Assembly: GCA_021797365.1 (NCBI GenBank)
Contig: JAJZZU010000042.1
Coordinates: forward strand, 1 to 12,786
DNA from: Pseudomonadota bacterium
Lineage (GTDB): Bacteria; Pseudomonadota; Gammaproteobacteria; Acidiferrobacterales; Acidiferrobacteraceae
Reading direction: 5' to 3'
DNA: 12,786 bases
Shown here piece after piece: positions 1 through 12,786 of the stretch; position 1 is the first letter of the stretch, and the number at the start of each line of letters is the position of its first letter. The position numbers and the translations under genes were made by a program. Under the pieces are notes generated by a model that saw nothing but the letters and a program-made list of their open reading frames with translations, was not told the origin of the DNA and made no database searches.

Positions 1-918
1 ATGCCAGACGCCGCGCCCGATCAACGCCGCATTTGGCTCATCGTAGACGAGGCCCCGCGAGTGGGTAAGGTCCCCAGCATTACGGATGCCTTGGCCACCG
101 CCCGCTCCAAGGGTCTACGCGTCGTGCTCGGGATCCAAAGTCTTGCACAAGTCCGCGAGGCTTATACGCGCGACACGGCCACGACCTGGGCGGGGCAGAC
201 GGCAACAAAAATCATCTGTCAGACGACCTCCCCCGACGATCAGGAGTGGTGTGCAAAGCTCTTGGGAGATCGCGAAGTCGATCGTTTTCAGCACCAGGTC
301 TCGACCCAGACCGGCCGCGATGGCGGCCAGCACAATCAATCCTGGCAGCGCGTCCGCGAGCCCGTGTTGATGCCGGCCGCGTTTGGTCGGGATCTCCAGG
401 TGATCAAAGGCCGCGGCCCGCGCGCGCTTGTGATGGCAGGCGGCGAGGCCGCCATCCTCAATTGGCCGTTTCCTCACCTGCCAATCTATCGCCCGGATCG
501 CATCGAGGCGCGCTGGATTCAGCCGAACTACCAGCGCCCGGACTGGGGTAAGGCCCCACCCGACGTAGGGAAACCCTCTGCTCCTGTGGCAGCCGTGCCG
601 CACTCCAAGAAAAAGCCCGAGAAGGACCAGCAAGCGCCAGCCTTCGGCACGCCGATGAGGGATTCTGAAACGCCGCGTCCCTTGCCTCCCGTCACGCCCG
701 ACACGGATCTCGCCGCTCCCATACAAGATCTTGTGTTCGACCACCTGGCCCCCGGTTTGGGCCTGCTCGGCAAAATATTGGGCACGATCGAAGCGGTGGG
801 CAGCGGACCGCCAGCCCCGGCGCAGGTGGTTACGGCCCGCCCACCGGCGCCCGAAGCGGCAGGTGTCGACGATCTCGACGGCGCCCGGGAGGGGCAAGAC
901 GAGGAACGGGAGCCGTAG
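1..918 (+). CDS. Type IV secretion coupling protein (TraD/VirD4-like ATPase), C-terminal part
   Basis: This is the C-terminal 305 residues of a coupling protein, the hexameric inner-membrane ATPase that feeds DNA-relaxase complexes into a type IV secretion channel. The window shows the Walker B strand WLIVDEAPRVGK (residues 12-23), the segment DALATARSKGLRVVLGIQS (29-47, ending in the family's sensor-like Gln) and the rest of the RecA-like fold to about residue 170. From about 180 on there is a Pro/Ala-rich, low-complexity tail, probably variable and possibly substrate-binding. The frame is open to the first base and Walker A is absent. Coupling proteins are usually around 600 residues, so the gene surely begins outside the window and the ATG at base 1 is probably internal. 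A 7-bp hairpin lies between its stop and the next gene. Family assignment is firm; F-type versus P-type is not resolved. Confidence 0.85.
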   Translation: MPDAAPDQRRIWLIVDEAPRVGKVPSITDALATARSKGLRVVLGIQSLAQVREAYTRDTATTWAGQTATKIICQTTSPDDQEWCAKLLGDREVDRFQHQVSTQTGRDGGQHNQSWQRVREPVLMPAAFGRDLQVIKGRGPRALVMAGGEAAILNWPFPHLPIYRPDRIEARWIQPNYQRPDWGKAPPDVGKPSAPVAAVPHSKKKPEKDQQAPAFGTPMRDSETPRPLPPVTPDTDLAAPIQDLVFDHLAPGLGLLGKILGTIEAVGSGPPAPAQVVTARPPAPEAAGVDDLDGAREGQDEEREP

Positions 919-2705: not shown

Positions 2706-4184
2706 ATGAGTAACAACGAGGGGAAAACACAACCGCAGAGTTTCTTTTATCGCCTCCGTTCCATTGACGCCATTTTAGGCGAACGCAAGGAGCTGGAAAA
2801 CCAGGAAATCTATTTTTGTCCACCCGATCAATTGAACGATCCGATGGAGGGCTATAAAGACCTTTTTTGGTGGGGGGATGAAATTGTCTGGCGGAACCTT
2901 CTGAAGCACTATCTTGCGTGCTTGACGCAATCGCTCCTTACGGCGTTCATATTGCGTGAAGACTACGATCCTCATCTTGCGCGGAACTTCGTATTCACGA
3001 CGCCATCCACGCTGCCGACAGAACAACTCAAGGGACTTCATCGGCGTGTTTGTGATATTTTTTTTGGTCTGAACAGGCTTGCCCGCTTGCCCGCGATGCT
3101 TGCCGCCCGGACTAGTGCTTTGCGGCGTGAGGAAGTGGAGTTCTGTTTGCGTGCGGTTCATGGGGTCGCCCTCAAATGTGTCAAGACGATATTGTGCGAG
3201 GAAGGACGCTGGCCATCTGTAAACGAGACGTCGTCTGTGCCGCAGTTTACAGAAGAAGATATCCGCGTTCTCGAAAATCTATTCAAGGTCCTTGACGGCT
3301 TAAAGGAGCACCAAGTCGAATCCAAACCAGAACTTATGGGCGCACTGTTCGGCGCAAGCGCGCGTATCAACCGGCAAATGGATCTGATCCGATATTGTGG
3401 TTTCACAGACGACCTCTCAAGGGCCTGGCACCCGATTTTCTATTCCTTTCCTGAGCATTACGTGGATAGTCTCCGCGATCTCGTATACTTCAATTGGTAT
3501 GCTGCCTGCTTCGTCACCGACCCAACTCATGCCGCGATGTGGGGACATTATGGTGACGCGCATAAAGGTATCTGTCTCAAATTCCGCGCCGAGGAAAGGG
3601 AGGGACAGCCATCTGTGCTAAAATTACACGGCATTAAGGGTTGGCAGGGCTGTCCAAACGGTGGAGGGCCGGTTTACGGCGATATTCCGCTGTCATTCGA
3701 GCAGATAATTTACACGGACAAGCTGCCAGAAATCGATTTCTTCCGTTCTATTGGCCGCTTTCCGGTGCCCGTCTTGCAGTCGCAATGGTATACGGATGAG
3801 CAAGGCAACAGCAGCGCGTGTGCTGAGGATGTGTTCGAACACATGAGCGATTGGCACAAGCGTTACTGGGAGTCATTCAGGCAATTGGCCTTTACCAAAC
3901 TGCAGGACTGGCGATATGAGGGGGAATACCGCCTGACCCTGATGCCTTCGCTCGATTTCTTCAGCGAAGCCAAAGATCGCAAGCTGCGATACCGTTTTTC
4001 TGATCTTGAAGGAATCATCTTTGGTATCAGGACACCGCTTGCTAAGAAGGCCCGCATCATCGATATCGTGGCTGCTAAGTGTAAGGCTGAAGGAAGAAAA
4101 TCGTTTGCATTCAGTCAGGCGGTCTATAATGCCCATAATGGTAGGATTGAAGCCCATCCGCTCGATCTGATCCGGTTCGAGTAA
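2706..4184 (+). CDS. DUF2971-domain protein (492 aa)
   Basis: A soluble 492-residue protein with the landmarks of DUF2971: N-terminal YRLRS followed by EIYFCPPDQLNDPMEGY (residues 34-50), then MWGHYGDAHKGICLKF (278-293) and, near the C-terminus, FTKLQDWRYEGEYRL (396-410). Between the first two landmarks lies a helix-rich insert of about 200 residues, making this protein longer than the usual DUF2971 members of about 250-350 residues. The biochemical role of the family is not established; members are common in defence-rich and mobile regions. The start is supported by AAGGA at 2693-2697, 8 nt upstream. It stands alone, with a terminator upstream at 2464-2493 and a convergent gene downstream. 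Its more AT-rich composition and its position between an intact and a broken phospholipase-D gene point to insertion as a separate cargo gene. Confidence 0.75.
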   Translation: MSNNEGKTQPQSFFYRLRSIDAILGERKELENQEIYFCPPDQLNDPMEGYKDLFWWGDEIVWRNLLKHYLACLTQSLLTAFILREDYDPHLARNFVFTTPSTLPTEQLKGLHRRVCDIFFGLNRLARLPAMLAARTSALRREEVEFCLRAVHGVALKCVKTILCEEGRWPSVNETSSVPQFTEEDIRVLENLFKVLDGLKEHQVESKPELMGALFGASARINRQMDLIRYCGFTDDLSRAWHPIFYSFPEHYVDSLRDLVYFNWYAACFVTDPTHAAMWGHYGDAHKGICLKFRAEEREGQPSVLKLHGIKGWQGCPNGGGPVYGDIPLSFEQIIYTDKLPEIDFFRSIGRFPVPVLQSQWYTDEQGNSSACAEDVFEHMSDWHKRYWESFRQLAFTKLQDWRYEGEYRLTLMPSLDFFSEAKDRKLRYRFSDLEGIIFGIRTPLAKKARIIDIVAAKCKAEGRKSFAFSQAVYNAHNGRIEAHPLDLIRFE

Positions 4185-5181: not shown

Positions 5182-5403
5182 ATGAATATGTTTCCCATCA
5201 TGCCCGCGATTGAGGCCTGCATAAACGTCATGGATATAGGAAACGAATCCGAACGCGTGCAGGCGGGAGCCTGGAGACAGGAGAGGGACACGATTACGGA
5301 TGGCCGTGGCCCCATTGAGGACAGGAACAGGGCCCTCGTGGCACTCCTGAACAGGATCCAACCGATAGCGGATGGGGTTGAGCGGGCGCGGCGAGAGCGT
5401 TAG
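5182..5403 (+). CDS. Putative antitoxin partner of the PIN toxin (73 aa)
   Basis: A 73-residue protein beginning MNMFPIMPAIEACINVMDIG, with a highly charged, helical C-terminal half (SERVQAGAWRQERD, then PIEDRNRALVALLNRIQPIA, ending GVERARRER). GAGG at 5171-5174 lies 7 nt before the ATG. No ribbon-helix-helix, AbrB or Phd signature is obvious, so the antitoxin call rests on position. It lies directly upstream of a PIN-domain gene, on the same strand, with its stop codon fused to the toxin's ribosome binding site (TAGGAGG). The amphipathic C-terminal helix would suit wrapping around a PIN toxin. It could instead be an unrelated small protein. Confidence 0.5.
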   Translation: MNMFPIMPAIEACINVMDIGNESERVQAGAWRQERDTITDGRGPIEDRNRALVALLNRIQPIADGVERARRER

Positions 5404-5412: not shown

Positions 5413-5910
5413 ATGACCTTATACCTCATGGATACAAACGCCTTCAACAACATATGCGATGCCGAGGATGTGGATGTCGCCACTATCGCGCGACAAGCGC
5501 AGGGTCGCGTATACGTAACCCACATTCAGCAGGATGAGGTCAATAACACTCGGGATGTTGCTCGGAGAGATGTTCTTAGGGGATGTCTCCAAACCATCAA
5601 TGCAGAGCCTTGGCCTACGGAGACCTTTATGATCGGGAAGTCGCGGCTTGGGATGGCGAGGTTGAGTGATGGTAGGCGTTATCACGCGATCTTGGACGAA
5701 CTGAACAACCGCAAGAAAAAAAGGAGCAACGAAGCTGACGCGCTGATAGGCGAGACGGCCGAAGCCCGTGAATGTGTCTTGGTGTCGGATGACCAGGATT
5801 TATCAGAGGTTATGAGAGAAGTGGGCGTCCAGGTGATTGGGTGGCGTCAGTTTGTTAAAGAATTGAGCGACCCAAGTCCCGCGACAAGCGCCGGTCTAGT
5901 AGGCCCTTGA
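5413..5910 (+). CDS. PIN-domain ribonuclease, probable toxin (VapC-like)
   Basis: A 165-residue PIN-fold protein, the metal-dependent RNase fold of VapC toxins. The expected acidic residues are visible: D7 in YLMDTNAF, E42 in QQDEVNN, D109 in NEADALIGETA and D126/D127 in VLVSDDQDL, the arrangement that binds Mg or Mn in the active site. Length is slightly above the usual 130-150 residues because of a tail after QVIGWRQFVKEL. The KKKRSNEADALI stretch before the third acidic residue is basic and could contact RNA. It is coupled to the 73-residue upstream gene through the shared TAGGAGG. Its 3' end overlaps the convergent nuclease gene by 15 bp. Likely role: growth inhibition by RNA cleavage and stabilisation of the mobile region. 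It could also be a stand-alone PIN nuclease. Confidence 0.75.
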   Translation: MTLYLMDTNAFNNICDAEDVDVATIARQAQGRVYVTHIQQDEVNNTRDVARRDVLRGCLQTINAEPWPTETFMIGKSRLGMARLSDGRRYHAILDELNNRKKKRSNEADALIGETAEARECVLVSDDQDLSEVMREVGVQVIGWRQFVKELSDPSPATSAGLVGP

Positions 5911-7092
5911 TATCACCAGCCGTGCGCTTCCGGGATCATAGGTAACGTCCGTAATAGAGCCATCCCGGATGCGCTGGACCGCTTCGTCAATGACGGGGAG
6001 CGGTACCAGGAACCACTCACGGGGGCGGACGGGCTTGCCGAATCGGTCTTCAATGGTGAGATCGAGCTGGGCGGGTGCGAAGAGGCGATGAAAGAGCCTC
6101 TCTAATTTGGTCCGGTTAATGCGCGCCAGTTTGTAGGTTGCCACGACTTCCACATCCGCCAGCAAGTAAGTCGCGTCGTGTGCCGCATTAGCAATGCGGG
6201 TTTCCACCTTACCGCCCGTCACGCCAATCTTATGAACAAGCTCCCGATGTTCAACAATAAACGGATGATGAGACAGGCTGCGCAACACATAGATAGTGCC
6301 GCTTTCAATGTCGTCTTCCTCCCATATCTGGCTGAACACGGGGCCGGAGTCGGGTTCCGGTGTCACACGCCGTCCGGTCTCATCTTTATACAGGGCGCGC
6401 TGGAGCGATCTACGTAAGAGATTGCTCTCGGTGCCATTAGCATAGACGACCCGTAAGCGGGCATCATTCCTGCCGGTGGCTGTTTTGATGGGCTCGCCCA
6501 CCTCGACGACATAGACGAGTTGGCCCGTCAGAATAAAAAAGTCCCCCTCCACGATAGCGGCGCCTTCCTTGCCGAAAGGCAGTGTCCGGCGCACGCCAGT
6601 CTTTAGATCACTCTCAACTTTGGCAAATAATGGCTTAAAGTGCGCGAAATCCAGACAGGGCGTGCGGTCGGCTACCTCTTCGGCGACCCGCCGGTCCTCT
6701 TGCGAGCGCACGTGCTTGAGGATGGTGATGTCCTCTTCGTTCGGGGTGGCCACACCGAGTTCGGCCAACAGCCCCTCGTCATCGAGTGTGTCCACCGGAC
6801 GCGTTTCCCTGGCGGCATCAAGGGCCAGCAGACTAAGAACGTCGCGGCTTGCCAGCAGTTTGCGCGCCTCGGGCAAGGCACGCAGGCGATCAAGGCGCAC
6901 CGCATACAGCCGCTCAAAGATATCACGGTCCTCTCCGTGTTGGGGTACGCGCCCCTGGATCTCGATAAAACGCAGGATGTCCTCAAAGCCGGCGATGAGG
7001 CGTTCCTCGCGCGGTGTGTGACGCCCAGTCGCGGCCGGGGTGACATCGACGCCTAAAGCATCGAGTAGCTCATCATCGGATAAATCAGACAT
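5896..7092 (-). CDS. GIY-YIG nuclease, third gene of the modification operon (398 aa)
   Basis: A 398-residue protein with a C-terminal GIY-YIG domain of the T5orf172 kind: GTIYVLRS (265-272), HKIGVTGG (287-294), R299, KLERLFHRLF (329-338, with E331 as the likely metal ligand) and REWF (358-361). The N-terminus carries an acidic motif, LSDDELLDALGV (4-15), that recurs as LDDEGLLAELGV (103-114). Between them is a helical module with GRVP and DIFERLYAVRLDRL (48-70), and residues 180-230 look like a small beta domain. ATG 7092 is chosen because AGGA lies 7 nt upstream; ATG 7098 would be only 1 nt from that site. It overlaps the helicase gene by 8 nt. It is probably the cleaving subunit of the methyltransferase-helicase-nuclease trio. 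It makes the 3' end of the operon and overlaps the PIN gene tail-to-tail. Confidence 0.8.
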   Translation of the reverse strand: MSDLSDDELLDALGVDVTPAATGRHTPREERLIAGFEDILRFIEIQGRVPQHGEDRDIFERLYAVRLDRLRALPEARKLLASRDVLSLLALDAARETRPVDTLDDEGLLAELGVATPNEEDITILKHVRSQEDRRVAEEVADRTPCLDFAHFKPLFAKVESDLKTGVRRTLPFGKEGAAIVEGDFFILTGQLVYVVEVGEPIKTATGRNDARLRVVYANGTESNLLRRSLQRALYKDETGRRVTPEPDSGPVFSQIWEEDDIESGTIYVLRSLSHHPFIVEHRELVHKIGVTGGKVETRIANAAHDATYLLADVEVVATYKLARINRTKLERLFHRLFAPAQLDLTIEDRFGKPVRPREWFLVPLPVIDEAVQRIRDGSITDVTYDPGSARLVISRAY

Positions 7093-9208
7093 CGCCATTT
7101 CCTGCGCGTTCGGCTGTGGCTTTTTCCTGAGCACGATAGCGGGCCAAGGCCGCCACGCCTTCGGCCATGCGCCGTTCCCAAGCGTCCTGCGCGTTGATGT
7201 GCGGTAATCGACCTCGTTCCTGTTTGAATTGCAAAGCCCGTTGCGCGAGCTCACGCGCCTCGTCGATTGGAATGGTAAGTCGCTTGGCCGCAATCGTTGC
7301 CTGTACTTGGCGGAGCGTCTTCTCGTCCATTGCCTTAGCGAGAATGGCATAGGCCGCCTCAAAAGGGTTGATGCGGTCAATGAGATCAATATCCAGGTCG
7401 CGCACGTTCACAAACCGCCGGACGCCTTCAATAAGCGCCATACTGCCGGTGCCCTCAGAACCGACTGGTTTGTCACTTACCATATGTTGTTTGGCTTGCT
7501 GGGTGAGGTTCAGGGTCGCCACCGCATGCTGGCGGACAGCCTCCTGATCGGTCTCGGTCAACTCGGGATAGCGCTCGCGGACAATCTTGCCCATACGCAA
7601 CTGCGTCAATTCCTCAGGCAGCGTATTCTCTTGATCAAAGAGACCACGCTCCAAAGCAGATTTATCTTGCACAAAGGCGGTGATGACTTCGTTTAGATCT
7701 TCGCGGCAGATACGGCTTGCCTCGGGGCTTTGGGGCATCGCAAGTCCCCCGATCTCGACATGATACTGACCGGTCGCCTCATTGACGCCAACATTGGTGG
7801 CGCCCTCTACGTATCCACTCGGACCGTAATCAAAATCCCCCTGGGGCCCGGCGTTTTTCGGCGTAAACTCAAAGCGGGGCGCTAAGACCTGCTCCATCAA
7901 GAGGCTTGCCGCAATAGCCTTGAGGGTATCGTTGATCGCATCGACCACGGTGGTTTCGATAGCATCCGGTTCGGCGATTAGATTGGTAAAGCGGGCCCTT
8001 TCCTTGCCAGGGGCATCGCGTGTGGCACGGCCAATGATCTGGACAATCTCGGTGAGACTACTGCGATAGCCGATGGTCAAGGCATGCTCGCACCAGATCC
8101 AATCGAATCCTTCCTTGGCCATGCCCAGCGCGATAATGATATCCACATGGTCGCGGTTGCCTCGTTGCGCCGGGTCTTTTAAGGCGGATAGCACCTGGGA
8201 GCGCTTGGCGGGATCCCCATCATCGACGAGGTCAGCAACCTTAATAACCCTCCCATTCGGGTCACCGGACCGCTCAATGAGGTGAAATCCGGTCACGGGA
8301 TCCACCCCTTGCCAGGTGCCGAGGGCATCCATGATCTCCTCGACCTCTTTGTGTTTGTCTTTGAGGCTCTCGCGCGAATTGACATTCGGGATATGCACGA
8401 TGGTCTTGAGCGACGCATCGAGCACCTTCATGATCGCGTCCAGATAGCGGCCTGTATAGAAGAAATAGCCGATGTCGAGGGATTTGAGGTACTCGTAACC
8501 GTTTAACTGTTCATAATAGGTGTAGGTCACCGTCTCAAAGCGGGCCTCATCGGAAGGCGCGAGCACCGCCGCGGCATCCCCCCGAAAATAAGACCCCGTC
8601 ATGGCGACGATATGGGTCTTGTCGCGGGCCAGAAAGAGCGCAAGCTGACTTCCCAGCCGATTGTCTGGGTGGCTGCTGATGTGGTGAAACTCATCGACCG
8701 CAATGAGCCGATTATCAAAAGCCTCCACGCCGAGATCATCGACGGCGAAACGGAAGGTGGCGTGGGTGCAGATCAACACCCGGTCATCGCTTGCGAGGAA
8801 TTGACCGACCGCCTGGACCTTGGAGTGGGCGATACGCGGTTCATCGGCGCCCGGCGCATTGCACAGATTCCATTGGGGCTTAACGGTCCAGTCCCACCAA
8901 AAACCGGCCTCGCTTAAAGGTTCGTCAGCAAAACTACCCCCTATTGAGCGTTCGGGTACGACGATAATGGCTTGTTTGAGCCCCTGGTTATGGAGCTTAT
9001 CAAGAGCAATAAACATCAAGGCCCGCGACTTCCCCGAGGCTGGGGGCGACTTCAGGAGCAGATATGGTTCACCGCGTTTGGTATAGGCGCGCTCCTGCAT
9101 GGGCCGCATCCCTAGGGCATTGATCCTACTCGATGCGCCACTGCGATTGGTTGCAATCGACACCGAGGGGACCGTGTACCGGTTAGTGGGATTGTCAGGG
9201 GTACTCAT
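7085..9208 (-). CDS. DEAD/DEAH-box SF2 helicase/translocase of the modification operon (707 aa)
   Basis: Superfamily 2 ATPase resembling the motor subunits of restriction systems. Motifs seen: Walker A SPPASGKS (54-61), motif Ia-like IIVVPERSIGG (81-91), ICTHATF (146-152), Walker B DEFH (172-175), motif III MTGS (203-206), VDIIIALGMAKEGFDW (355-370) in the motif V region and motif VI QIIGRATRD (390-398). Residues 410-707 form a long C-terminal part ending in a segment with GRLPHINAQDAWERRMAEG, similar to one in the nuclease. The ATG overlaps the methyltransferase stop by 4 nt (ATGA), and the stop overlaps the nuclease start by 8 nt, so the three are certainly one operon. Expected role: ATP-driven translocation on DNA to link target recognition by the methyltransferase to cleavage by the GIY-YIG subunit. 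It carries no nuclease motif of its own. Confidence 0.85.
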   Translation of the reverse strand: MSTPDNPTNRYTVPSVSIATNRSGASSRINALGMRPMQERAYTKRGEPYLLLKSPPASGKSRALMFIALDKLHNQGLKQAIIVVPERSIGGSFADEPLSEAGFWWDWTVKPQWNLCNAPGADEPRIAHSKVQAVGQFLASDDRVLICTHATFRFAVDDLGVEAFDNRLIAVDEFHHISSHPDNRLGSQLALFLARDKTHIVAMTGSYFRGDAAAVLAPSDEARFETVTYTYYEQLNGYEYLKSLDIGYFFYTGRYLDAIMKVLDASLKTIVHIPNVNSRESLKDKHKEVEEIMDALGTWQGVDPVTGFHLIERSGDPNGRVIKVADLVDDGDPAKRSQVLSALKDPAQRGNRDHVDIIIALGMAKEGFDWIWCEHALTIGYRSSLTEIVQIIGRATRDAPGKERARFTNLIAEPDAIETTVVDAINDTLKAIAASLLMEQVLAPRFEFTPKNAGPQGDFDYGPSGYVEGATNVGVNEATGQYHVEIGGLAMPQSPEASRICREDLNEVITAFVQDKSALERGLFDQENTLPEELTQLRMGKIVRERYPELTETDQEAVRQHAVATLNLTQQAKQHMVSDKPVGSEGTGSMALIEGVRRFVNVRDLDIDLIDRINPFEAAYAILAKAMDEKTLRQVQATIAAKRLTIPIDEARELAQRALQFKQERGRLPHINAQDAWERRMAEGVAALARYRAQEKATAERAGNGDV

Positions 9209-11985
9209 GGTTGGGTCTTCCTTGTCTTCTTGCCCGCGGTTTGGGTTCCGGTCATCTTGGCGTACAGATCAAACAATTTCTCCAAGCGCTCGGTATCGTT
9301 CCGAAACCGACGGCCGATATAGATACGCTCAAGCACCTCGTCATTGCTTTCATGGGCATGACGCAGATTCTCCGGCATGTGGTCGGGGTCGTAGAGATCA
9401 GCAATAGTGGCCGGAAAATGCGCCTCGCGGGCCAACAGAATGTCTTCCGCACAGCGGGTCAGATCGGCTTTGTTTTGCTCTGTTAATAATGGTACAGGGA
9501 AGGTGTTCCAGCCCAAGGTGTTGGAGTATCGGAAATCCGTTTTTAGCTTGCCGCAGACCGTTGCAATCCAGACCAGATGCAGGCGCGAGGCGAGTAGCGC
9601 CATGTTCCAGAGGGGGGCGTCGTAGAGGGCAAAAGCGAGATTGCTTACTATCGCGCCTGGTGGCAAATAACCAACTGGAAGATATTCACGACTTTCGGAC
9701 GAGACACTGGGCATGATGATGCTACGCTCGTCGCCCCTTTGGCGGACCTCGCCAAAGCGGTACGGAAACCGAGCAAGGTCTTTGGTCGTCTTTCGATCAG
9801 ATGCCAACCGCTGTTCTCGTACCCCCTTGAAACGAGCGCGTAGCCATGCGTTTTCGTTAGCACTTTCATACTGATCATCCGTAACCCAAACGCACCGTCT
9901 TTCGATACCCCGGATAAACTCTTGTGAGCCGAGAAACGGGCGAATAAACGTCGTCGGCACATCGTGCTCCCTTACGGCTGAGTGAGCCTGATCCACATTC
10001 AGTAATAGGTTTCCGCCGTCATTCGGCATATTGCCGAAGCTCATTTCAGTCAGATCATTTATCGGGCGGGAGATGGGCCTAACAAGCACATTAGGGCCCG
10101 GCACAAGATAGGCGTTGATGTTGTTAACGACTTTGATATTAGTATCTGCGTTATCCGCTGCAGAAAAAAGCCGCCGGGTCTTGTTCGAGCTATTTGAGAT
10201 AGCCACGATAACAACGGTTACTCCGGCATTGTAGGTTGCAAGATTCGCCCACTTGAACGAGGAGTAGGCAAAGACGATTTCGTGGCCAAGCGAAAAAATA
10301 AGCGACCACAATGTATCAACCTGCCTCCCCTGACAGATGGAATTCGTCGCCACGAACGCCGCCACGGTTTGCGTTTTTGTACCGTACTCTGCCGCCTTCA
10401 TAAACCATCCTGACACGTAATCGAGCGATTTCCAGCTCTTCGTGCGCGGCTCGAAGACGACCTTGAGGTCAGATTTTTGTGCTTCCGTCTGCCATTGACT
10501 TCCACGATATGGTGGATTCCCACAGATATACGTTTCACCACCCTCGTTCTCAAAATCAATCTCGGCCTGATCAAGCGGTGTCTGAAAGAGATCGTCCGAA
10601 ACAACCCTAACCCCTGTACCTGTCGGCGGACAAATGCTGAGCCAATCCAATTGCAACGCATTGCCGCAAGTGATCCAGTTTTCGGTCGCAAGCGGCAGAA
10701 ATCCGTCCAGCGCCAGGGCCTGACCGCGGTAAAGGACATTGCACTGGTATTCGGCAATGGTGAGTGCCAATCGTGCAATCTTTGCCGGAAAATCGCGTAA
10801 CTCGATCCCCCGAAAGTTGGTGAGAGGGATTTCTGTAGGACGATCTGACTCGCCGCGGCGCGTGTTGATCTCCGCCTCGATCGCGCGCATCTGTTTATAG
10901 GCGATCACCAGAAAGTTGCCGGAGCCACAGGCGGGATCGAAGACGCGGATGTGGCTTATGCGCTTGCGCAGGTTCAACAGCAGGCGGGGATTGCTGCCGG
11001 CGGCCTCCAACTGGGCACGCAGATCATCTAGAAAAAGAGGGTTTAGCACCTTCAGGATATTGGGCACGCTTGTGTAGTGCATGCCTAAGGCCTCGCGTTC
11101 CCCTTCATCGGCCACCGCCTGGATCATGGAGCCGAAGATGTCCGGGTTGATGTGCGCCCAGTCCAGATGCCCGGCGTGGAAGAGGTAGGTGCGGGCAATA
11201 CGTGAGAAGCGTGGGACCTCGGTACTGCCGGCAAAGAGGCCGCCGTTGACGTAGGGAAAGGGCTGCGACCAAGACGGCAGCGATGCGGCAGAACGTGCAG
11301 TATCTCGCATGTTCATGGCGCGAAACAGTATGCCCATAACCTCATGCGTGTTGGTCCCGTCACGCTCGGTCATCTGCTCAAGGGTGCGCGTAAAAAGGTC
11401 GTCGCCATTAAAGATACGGGTGTCTTCAGCAAAAAAACAGAAGATAAGACGCGCCATAAAGTGATTGAGATCATGACGGCGGGTCTCGGTGGCCCACTCG
11501 GGGTTATCTTTCAGCAGCTCCACATAGAGTTTGTTCAGTCGCCCCGTGGCGCGGACGTCGATGGGGTTATTCTTGATCTCTTGGATCGACGCAATACCAG
11601 CGAGTGGCAAGAAAAAGCCAAAGTACTGGGCGAGATCGCAATAATTGCAGGCGAGGGTGTCACCACCGACGAGATCTTCCGCCTCCAGCGTCTGGCCATC
11701 GGTAGCGAGGATGAATTTCGCTTTGGCGCTTATGGTCTTGGGGTGATCACGCAGCGTCTGTAATAGGGCGCCTACGGTGCCGGGCGCACAGACTACAATA
11801 TGGATGTTATTGCGTTGAAGCACCCCGCCTGGGACATCGGAGGCATTCGTCTCGCCCTTGCGCAGGCGATTGATGGTGGTTTCTTTGTTGTCGAAGGCAG
11901 CCAGAAAGGCGAACGCAAACTCATCCCGATCAAAAGGCTGGCGGGCTAAATCGGAGACGGCGGCTTCGATCTCGACGGCGTTCAT
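9205..11985 (-). CDS. MmeI-like N6-adenine DNA methyltransferase without visible nuclease motif (926 aa)
   Basis: A large class I, SAM-dependent, gamma-type adenine methyltransferase. Motif I FDPACGSGNFL (349-359) binds SAM, and motif IV GNPPY (489-493) is the catalytic NPPY of adenine methylases. Residues 150-345 form the helical spacer typical of MmeI-like enzymes (FCFFAEDTRIF, PYVNGGLF, EREALGMHYTS). Residues about 640-830 look like the target-recognition part, ending in KLKTDFRYSNTLGWNTFPVP, and a helical C-terminus follows. In bifunctional MmeI enzymes the N-terminal domain carries a PD-(D/E)XK nuclease. Here residues 1-130 (with FILATDGQTLEAEDLVGGDT) show no such motif, so it probably only methylates and recognises DNA. 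It is the first gene of the operon and overlaps the helicase start by 4 nt. Upstream there is no clear ribosome binding site next to the ATG. The Lys-rich tail (GKKTRKTQP) is probably disordered. Confidence 0.85.
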   Translation of the reverse strand: MNAVEIEAAVSDLARQPFDRDEFAFAFLAAFDNKETTINRLRKGETNASDVPGGVLQRNNIHIVVCAPGTVGALLQTLRDHPKTISAKAKFILATDGQTLEAEDLVGGDTLACNYCDLAQYFGFFLPLAGIASIQEIKNNPIDVRATGRLNKLYVELLKDNPEWATETRRHDLNHFMARLIFCFFAEDTRIFNGDDLFTRTLEQMTERDGTNTHEVMGILFRAMNMRDTARSAASLPSWSQPFPYVNGGLFAGSTEVPRFSRIARTYLFHAGHLDWAHINPDIFGSMIQAVADEGEREALGMHYTSVPNILKVLNPLFLDDLRAQLEAAGSNPRLLLNLRKRISHIRVFDPACGSGNFLVIAYKQMRAIEAEINTRRGESDRPTEIPLTNFRGIELRDFPAKIARLALTIAEYQCNVLYRGQALALDGFLPLATENWITCGNALQLDWLSICPPTGTGVRVVSDDLFQTPLDQAEIDFENEGGETYICGNPPYRGSQWQTEAQKSDLKVVFEPRTKSWKSLDYVSGWFMKAAEYGTKTQTVAAFVATNSICQGRQVDTLWSLIFSLGHEIVFAYSSFKWANLATYNAGVTVVIVAISNSSNKTRRLFSAADNADTNIKVVNNINAYLVPGPNVLVRPISRPINDLTEMSFGNMPNDGGNLLLNVDQAHSAVREHDVPTTFIRPFLGSQEFIRGIERRCVWVTDDQYESANENAWLRARFKGVREQRLASDRKTTKDLARFPYRFGEVRQRGDERSIIMPSVSSESREYLPVGYLPPGAIVSNLAFALYDAPLWNMALLASRLHLVWIATVCGKLKTDFRYSNTLGWNTFPVPLLTEQNKADLTRCAEDILLAREAHFPATIADLYDPDHMPENLRHAHESNDEVLERIYIGRRFRNDTERLEKLFDLYAKMTGTQTAGKKTRKTQP

Positions 11986-12492: not shown

Positions 12493-12786
12493 TTACCTCA
12501 ACCTCCCCACCAAATCTTTCGCCTTCAAGTGAGTATATCGCTTGAGCATCTGCAGGGTCTTATGCCCTGTAATCGCCGCCACTTCCATAGGATTCAATCC
12601 CTTCTCAAAAAGCCTGCTCGTGGCCTCATGCCGCAGATCATGGAAGGTGAGCCCTTCGATGCCCGCGGCCTTGCAGGTCTCGGCAAAGCCTCGACTGATA
12701 GATGCTGCATGAATAGCAAAAACACGGCCGTCGATACGTCGTGGCAGTGTGTCCAAGGTTGTCAGCGCTCGTGTCGATAACGGCAC
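12493..12786 (-). CDS. Tyrosine recombinase (phage-type integrase), C-terminal part
   Basis: The last 97 residues of a tyrosine recombinase, which joins or separates DNA through a covalent 3'-phosphotyrosine link. Visible catalytic residues are H49 and R52 in LTFHDLRHEATS, H75 in ITGHKTLQMLKRYTHL and the nucleophile Y84. The first catalytic Arg and the N-terminal DNA-binding domains lie beyond the right edge of the window, so the gene is partial at its 5' end and the GTG at the boundary is not a real start. It ends TAA at 12493-12495, with the next gene's start 3 nt later. The match to integrases of prophages and integrative elements is clear; the precise family is not. It suggests that the adjacent genes travel in an integrated element, whose attachment site should lie outside this window. 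Confidence 0.85.
   Translation of the reverse strand: MPLSTRALTTLDTLPRRIDGRVFAIHAASISRGFAETCKAAGIEGLTFHDLRHEATSRLFEKGLNPMEVAAITGHKTLQMLKRYTHLKAKDLVGRLR

Follow-up and report, generated by a model that had tools for sequence, protein, structure and literature searches.

The main finding of this work is that three overlapping genes on an Acidiferrobacteraceae contig (JAJZZU010000042.1, assembly GCA_021797365.1; the whole stretch of 12,786 nt analysed is called the window) are a copy of DnmA(YeeA)-YeeB-YeeC, an already described defence cassette that is known best from Bacillus subtilis and still little understood; they do not represent a novel kind of system. They encode an MmeI-like adenine methylase, a superfamily 2 (SF2) DNA motor and a GIY-YIG nuclease, and we consider it most likely that these proteins together carry out a methylation-gated, ATP-dependent restriction in which recognition, motor and cutter are separate.

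An earlier note, made from the window's sequence alone, had proposed a restriction type outside the standard classes. This novelty does not stand, because the same arrangement has been described in Bacillus subtilis, where DnmA (YeeA), an MmeI homologue without a nuclease motif that methylates GACGmAG, is followed by the helicase YeeB and the T5orf172/GIY-YIG protein YeeC (PMC7261158, PMC9973331). The dnmA-yeeB-yeeC order is conserved across species, and the genes were tested in B. subtilis (PMC9973331). PMC7261158 credits Morgan et al. (2009) with nuclease-motif-less MmeI homologues beside yeeB- and yeeC-like genes and with a "Type I-like" proposal; a Type I-like or noncanonical restriction-modification (R-M) role was proposed earlier for the B. 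subtilis cassette as well, and Makarova et al. (2011) are cited for placing YeeB and YeeC among putative antiphage genes (PMC7261158, PMC9973331). As PMC9973331 relates from Piel et al., V. crassostreae became more sensitive to certain phages upon deletion of dnmA and yeeB. Among the relatives of the window copy, the motor on plasmid NC_019327 is 67% identical and annotated as "restriction/modification system component YeeB", and those with species names include Acidiferrobacter thiooxydans (motor 86%, nuclease 82% identical). The family search found MmeI_TRD matches in the B. subtilis control genome, and four 879-aa Bacilli homologues carry NPPY at 462-465, a match by position to DnmA Y465 of PMC7261158.

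Organization of the operon

According to the list of open reading frames (ORFs), the genes occupy 5896-11985 of the minus strand in the order methylase, motor, nuclease, and their coordinates confirm the overlaps of 4 nt (methylase/motor, 9205-9208) and 8 nt (motor/nuclease, 7085-7092) given in the earlier note. The features are as follows.

9205..11985, minus strand: DnmA/YeeA-like methylase-specificity protein, 926 aa, with MmeI_N, spacer, N6-adenine methyltransferase with NPPY, target-recognition domain and C-terminal bundle
11506..11985, minus strand: MmeI_N domain, aa 1-160 (Pfam), D..EXK nuclease residues missing
9487..10098, minus strand: target-recognition domain (TRD), aa 630-833, specificity positions R731, E746, S760, N782, L783, K815, D817, R819
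7085..9208, minus strand: YeeB-like SF2 DNA motor, 707 aa, with Walker A PPASGKSR, DEFH box, TGSYF and GRATRD
7121..7246, minus strand: C-terminal module of the motor, aa 655-696, resembling the N-terminal module of the nuclease
5896..7092, minus strand: YeeC-like GIY-YIG (T5orf172/MUG113) nuclease, 398 aa (ORF, Pfam, alignment)
6859..6987, minus strand: N-terminal module of the nuclease, aa 36-78, common to the motor C-terminus
5965..6300, minus strand: GIY-YIG catalytic domain, aa 265-376, with Y268, K288-I-G290, R299 and E331

The domain assignments of the earlier note were confirmed for all three proteins. The methylase shows the complete MmeI domain order in Pfam (MmeI_N, MmeI_hel, MmeI_Mtase with E 1e-112, MmeI_TRD with 2.6e-83, MmeI_C) and the motifs HYTS303, DPACGSGN350 and NPPY490; in sequence searches the MmeI structure 5hr4 (450 bits) was its sole solved-structure match at E 0.001, and its PADLOC match, PDLC03598 (E 9.1e-282), is filed as "REase_MTase_IIG". 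What that note had missed is that the MmeI-like N-terminal domain is without PD-(D/E)XK catalytic residues. The SF2 motifs of the motor were located as PPASGKSR55, DEFHH172, MTGSYF203, ALGMAKEGFDW360 and GRATRD393, and PADLOC gave two marginal matches (E 0.01). In the nuclease, MUG113 and T5orf172 both score over the Pfam cut-offs, the motifs are G265-T-I-Y268, K288-I-G290, R299 and E331, and E331 is invariant among 53 aligned nucleases selected for full coverage. Its length of 398 aa assumes the ATG start at 7092; a second in-frame ATG lies at 7098, and the ORF list opens the frame at an upstream TTG. PADLOC gave no match for the nuclease, and neither motor nor nuclease matched a solved structure by sequence at better than E 0.29. 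As the earlier note had also stated, HsdS, PglZ, DrmA and DrmB are missing: none appears in the matches listed for the 8 window proteins compared with PADLOC or the 10 compared with Pfam. With all three genes full length and their motifs in place, the copy appears intact.

Conservation of the gene order

A profile built from 8 motors was scanned against a one-genome-per-species collection and confirmed at least 527 loci, the best 80 of which were used; these are near relatives, with motors 69-78% identical. Seventy-six of the 80 are complete, with the methylase upstream and the nuclease downstream of the motor on the same strand, and the remaining four are cut by contig ends. The three genes thus behave as one unit, as the earlier note had claimed, and the absence of co-occurrence in other genomes, which it had named as telling against its reading, was not seen. 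Thirty of 43 loci on viral contigs are complete as well; in nine others the nuclease is present and no methylase lies within the less than 3.5 kb of upstream sequence, and four are other cases (L124, L131, L132 and L137) that are weighed below. Phage records gave two motor matches with 23% coverage each, and the plasmid matches of the window by megablast, in 14 records, were all short and confined to the methylase region.

Nuclease residues of the methylase and its partners

Stand-alone MmeI-like methylases carry a D-x(9-10)-ExK motif, for example IDLFWKGVLLVEQK in a Methylobacterium plasmid (L007), which is missing in methylases accompanied by motor and GIY-YIG genes. Among 146 methylases from window, plasmid, viral and genome loci (176 before removal of redundancy at 90%), the motif was found in 0 of 96 with motor and GIY-YIG genes downstream (hereafter split methylases), in 0 of 3 with the motor only and in 0 of 1 with the nuclease only, as against 32 of 33 with neither partner and at least 3.5 kb of downstream room; near contig ends, where neither partner was seen and the room was smaller, it was found in 8 of 13. 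As a control, the pattern was run on 438 other segments of these proteins and hit 28 of them. The D, E and K columns of the alignment were therefore inspected directly, with unchanged counts: all three residues are present in 32 of the 33 stand-alone methylases that have room and in 8 of the 13 close to contig ends, whereas the split methylases lack D in 96 of 96 cases and none combines E/Q with K. In two loci (L209, L212) the pattern had taken a chance stretch, and the true motif is nonetheless present.

Since many of these loci had been chosen by their motor, a second comparison was made with genomes drawn through the MmeI TRD family, using 38 of 51 listed matches (E <1e-60; 13 weaker ones excluded). 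Motor and nuclease accompany 16 of the 38, and none of the 14 with an intact frame has the motif; L276 and L289 among these come from the pair of genomes on which the draw was centred, and excluding them leaves 12 of 12 without it. Another 16 have neither partner, and all 14 that are intact carry the motif, 12 by pattern and two (L271, L290) read by eye after the pattern had caught a chance stretch; the two with broken frames (L283, L298) show it too. Six were set aside: two cut by contig ends and without the motif (L265, L268) and four methylase pieces (L270, L275, L281, L300). In the tree of the 146 methylases, a single bipartition with support 1.0 separates the 40 motif-bearing methylases plus L011, from a Rhodococcus plasmid, from all 96 split ones. 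MmeI-TRD matches of both kinds occurred in 29 of 274 genomes sampled from one class and in 15 of 299 from a second, and protein searches returned at least 7999 motor relatives and at least 8000 nuclease relatives, so that the family is widespread.

Because the D..EXK residues are missing from the first protein when motor and GIY-YIG partners are present, cutting very probably belongs to the third protein, to which the earlier note had assigned it. Its description of the operon as a split version of MmeI holds only in part: MmeI has no motor, its "helicase spacer" being a helical linker (PMC4833311), so the motor was added rather than split off, and the tree, being unrooted, does not give the direction of the nuclease change. 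That the methylase is a stand-alone, self-cutting Type IIL enzyme of the MmeI kind, with the helicase and GIY-YIG genes as unrelated neighbours, would agree with its full MmeI domain set; this reading was rejected and is scarcely credible, as it is already contradicted by the absent D..EXK residues and by neighbours that are in place at every one of the 80 genome loci not truncated.

Two plasmid loci show other neighbours. The motif-bearing enzyme of the Methylobacterium plasmid (L007:5192-9057) has a phospholipase D (PLD) family gene 8 nt downstream. In the Rhodococcus plasmid (L011:1650-7666) the methylase is preceded by an overlapping gene for a 1090-aa SNF2-type helicase, with HKD+Snf2 and DrmD as best PADLOC profiles, which is possibly a second partner arrangement outside the YeeB-YeeC clade.

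Target recognition and predicted site

In the 844 pairs, taken from 93 split loci, whose motors share at least 80% identity, mean identity falls to 0.43 in the TRD, as against 0.68 in the methylase domain and 0.73 in MmeI_N. The TRD has thus been diversified or exchanged with the rest of the methylase kept, and the N-terminal domain, although lacking catalytic residues, is maintained and not decaying. Read with the specificity residues, rules and numbering of MmeI (PMC4833311), 92 of the 96 split methylases have one of the pairs E-R, K-D and R-D at 806/808. In the window, K806/D808 points to G as the sixth base, L774/R810 to G as the fourth and R723/E738, by the weakest rule, to C as the first; N773, as in MmeI, makes C plausible as base 3. 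The predicted site is therefore about CNNGmAG. The same scoring of five Bacilli homologues, none of them identified with the B. subtilis protein, gave GNNGAG, which fits GACGAG, for P0241 and P0242, GNNRAG for P0244 and P0256, and a different sixth base for P0251. The hypervariable TRD and the specificity code support the claim of the earlier note that recognition and methylation reside in the first protein.

A module common to motor and nuclease

The profiles of the motor C-terminus (113 aligned residues, 45 sequences) and of the nuclease N-terminus (140 residues, 84 sequences) align over 42 columns with an hhalign probability of 91 and a score of 40.9 (E 1.1e-6 for this single profile pair). 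Controls scored at most 15.0 for 12 tiled segments, 9.6 for a reversed profile and at most 19.4 for 60 column shuffles. The consensus is roughly F-x5-GR-x-P ... ER-x2-A, and the module perhaps docks the nuclease on the motor.

A variable slot between methylase and motor

The spacing between the methylase stop and the start of the motor gene is bimodal in 78 genome loci (34 below 200 nt, 5 at 200-600 and 39 above 600), and in 26 of the 39 long gaps the first reading frame overlaps the methylase stop by exactly 4 nt. The gaps hold 57 reading frames, 54 of which were scanned against Pfam, three short ones being omitted. The scan gave 33 families, 25 of them among the matches listed, with DUF1016/YhcG nuclease (8), AlbA_2/Schlafen (7) and RhuM (3); also among the matches listed are GmrSD_N, YafQ and ParE (2 each) and single members of CcdA, RelB, PIN, Fic, DUF559 and PDDEXK_4. 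Several frames have no Pfam match, and some may not be genes. At a Moraxella plasmid locus, a RelB/YafQ pair, a DUF4433 gene and a macro-domain gene lie between methylase and motor, and the window operon has no insert. The slot often holds defence-like or toxin-antitoxin genes. Accessory genes coupled to R-M loci are known, such as prrC in a Type I locus (PMC12707154), and PMC9973331 mentions frequent uncharacterized neighbours of the cassette; a literature search with little coverage of subscription papers found no report of slot accessory genes in this family. The slot links the family to R-M loci that carry back-up defences.

Proposed mechanism and its alternatives

From the parts, their synteny, the nuclease trade-off, the TRD hypervariability and code and the shared module, all obtained by computation, we infer the following mechanism. 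The first protein would use its TRD to recognise a short, non-palindromic target and would methylate an adenine within it; the protein's own PD-(D/E)XK site is missing, and the retained N-terminal domain may serve as a docking surface. At an unmethylated site it would recruit or license YeeB, which would translocate along the DNA and bring YeeC, perhaps docked through the common module, to cut.

Several observations weigh against a role in restriction. None of the dnmA, yeeB and yeeC deletions in B. subtilis affected the three phages used, plasmid transformation, examined for the dnmA deletion alone, stayed the same, GACGAG is not depleted in phage genomes, and the authors term the locus an RM relic (PMC9973331, PMC7261158); our literature search turned up no biochemistry of YeeB or YeeC. 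The DEAD, Helicase_C and ResIII matches of the motor each score under the curated Pfam cut-off, the nuclease of one plasmid locus (L002) is shorter and stops ahead of the E331 position, and the common module could instead bind DNA. On viral contigs, L131 and L132 have a methylase and a partially matching motor without nuclease, L137 has a partially matching motor piece without nuclease, and L124 has a motor without a methylase in 6.8 kb upstream. L011 lacks both motif and downstream partners, its SNF2-type helicase gene lying upstream. We hold restriction to be probable and no more than that because of the B. subtilis negatives and the lack of biochemistry.

The methylase might instead be an orphan epigenetic regulator accompanied by a motor and a nuclease that are passengers or relics; this has been proposed for B. 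subtilis, where loss of N6-methyladenine (m6A) alters the expression of some genes and no restriction was seen (PMC7261158, PMC9973331). We regard this as unlikely, and defence fits better than regulation, because the three window genes are full length with their motifs, motor and nuclease are kept in 76 of the 80 genome loci, E331 is invariant and the TRD is far more variable than the rest. A BREX (bacteriophage exclusion)- or DISARM (defence island system associated with restriction-modification)-like exclusion, with methylation marking self and motor and nuclease blocking phage DNA without site-triggered cutting, would accord with the absence of GACGAG depletion in phages (PMC9973331) and with the distant similarity of the methylase to the DrmMI and PglX profiles of PADLOC; it seems quite improbable, given that PglZ, DrmA and DrmB are not among the listed matches of the scanned window proteins and that the GIY-YIG catalytic residues are present.

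Returning to restriction by separate proteins, we propose, tentatively and with more doubt than belief, a distinct ATP-dependent R-M subtype. An MmeI-like lineage would here use a motor and a detachable GIY-YIG nuclease, joined by the shared module, instead of a fused PD-(D/E)XK domain, and the methylase-motor junction would form a slot in which guard genes can be exchanged (DUF1016, AlbA_2/Schlafen, RhuM, GmrSD-like, toxin-antitoxin), possibly acting when a phage disables the complex, like PrrC in the Type I locus. The B. subtilis copy is considered a relic. With an intact-looking copy, for which a site is predicted and the roles are clearly divided, it becomes possible to test directly whether and how the family restricts.

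Genomic setting

The window resembles a section of an integrative or conjugative element, because a piece of a TraD/VirD4-type coupling protein (1-918, plus strand) lies at one end and a piece of a tyrosine recombinase (12493-12786, minus strand) at the other. On the plus strand, a PIN-domain gene (5413-5910; 24.9 bits against a Pfam cut-off of 23.6) is convergent with the nuclease gene and overlaps its stop by 15 nt; together with a 73-aa reading frame upstream of it (5182-5403, no PADLOC match) it is a possible toxin-antitoxin pair. Farther away on the same strand are a 492-aa DUF2971 protein (2706-4184) that matches the PADLOC candidate defence family PDC-S31 and a PLD-family nuclease (1393-2253) with similarity to DrmC and DpdK under the NCBIfam cut-offs (DrmC-like, 63.1 bits against a cut-off of 133).

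Comparison with known systems

Type I R-M systems (HsdMSR) and Type ISP enzymes (LlaGI) bring together, in a single set, a methylase, a recognition function, an SF2 motor and a nuclease; the BREX and DISARM operons also serve defence and include helicases and a PglX/DrmMI-type methylase. The window operon shares the set of the former two, but its motor and nuclease are on separate chains and the nuclease is GIY-YIG instead of PD-(D/E)XK. It differs from Type I in having no HsdS among the window proteins, and from Type ISP in having three genes and not nuclease, motor, methylase and TRD in a single chain. The likeness to LlaGI drawn in the earlier note is an analogy of parts, not a demonstrated kinship. 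Like a Type I locus with prrC (PMC12707154), the family has extra genes embedded at the locus. An assignment to BREX or DISARM was rejected, the marker genes being absent from the listed matches of the scanned window proteins: no PglZ match was found among the 8 proteins compared with PADLOC and no DrmA or DrmB match, the only DISARM-like gene being the DrmC-like one at 1393-2253. With MmeI and Type IIL enzymes the methylase shares the five-domain chain, the 450-bit match to 5hr4 and alignable TRD code positions; it differs in lacking D..EXK, in having motor and nuclease on separate genes and in belonging to a separate clade. Closest is the B. subtilis DnmA-YeeB-YeeC cassette, which has the same gene order, with a nuclease-motif-less MmeI-like methylase, an SF2 helicase and a T5orf172/GIY-YIG protein as third, and a non-palindromic m6A site ending in GAG, predicted for the window and found as GACGmAG in B. 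subtilis; the window copy differs in its gammaproteobacterial origin, in its conjugation/recombinase setting and in a predicted first site base of C, not G.

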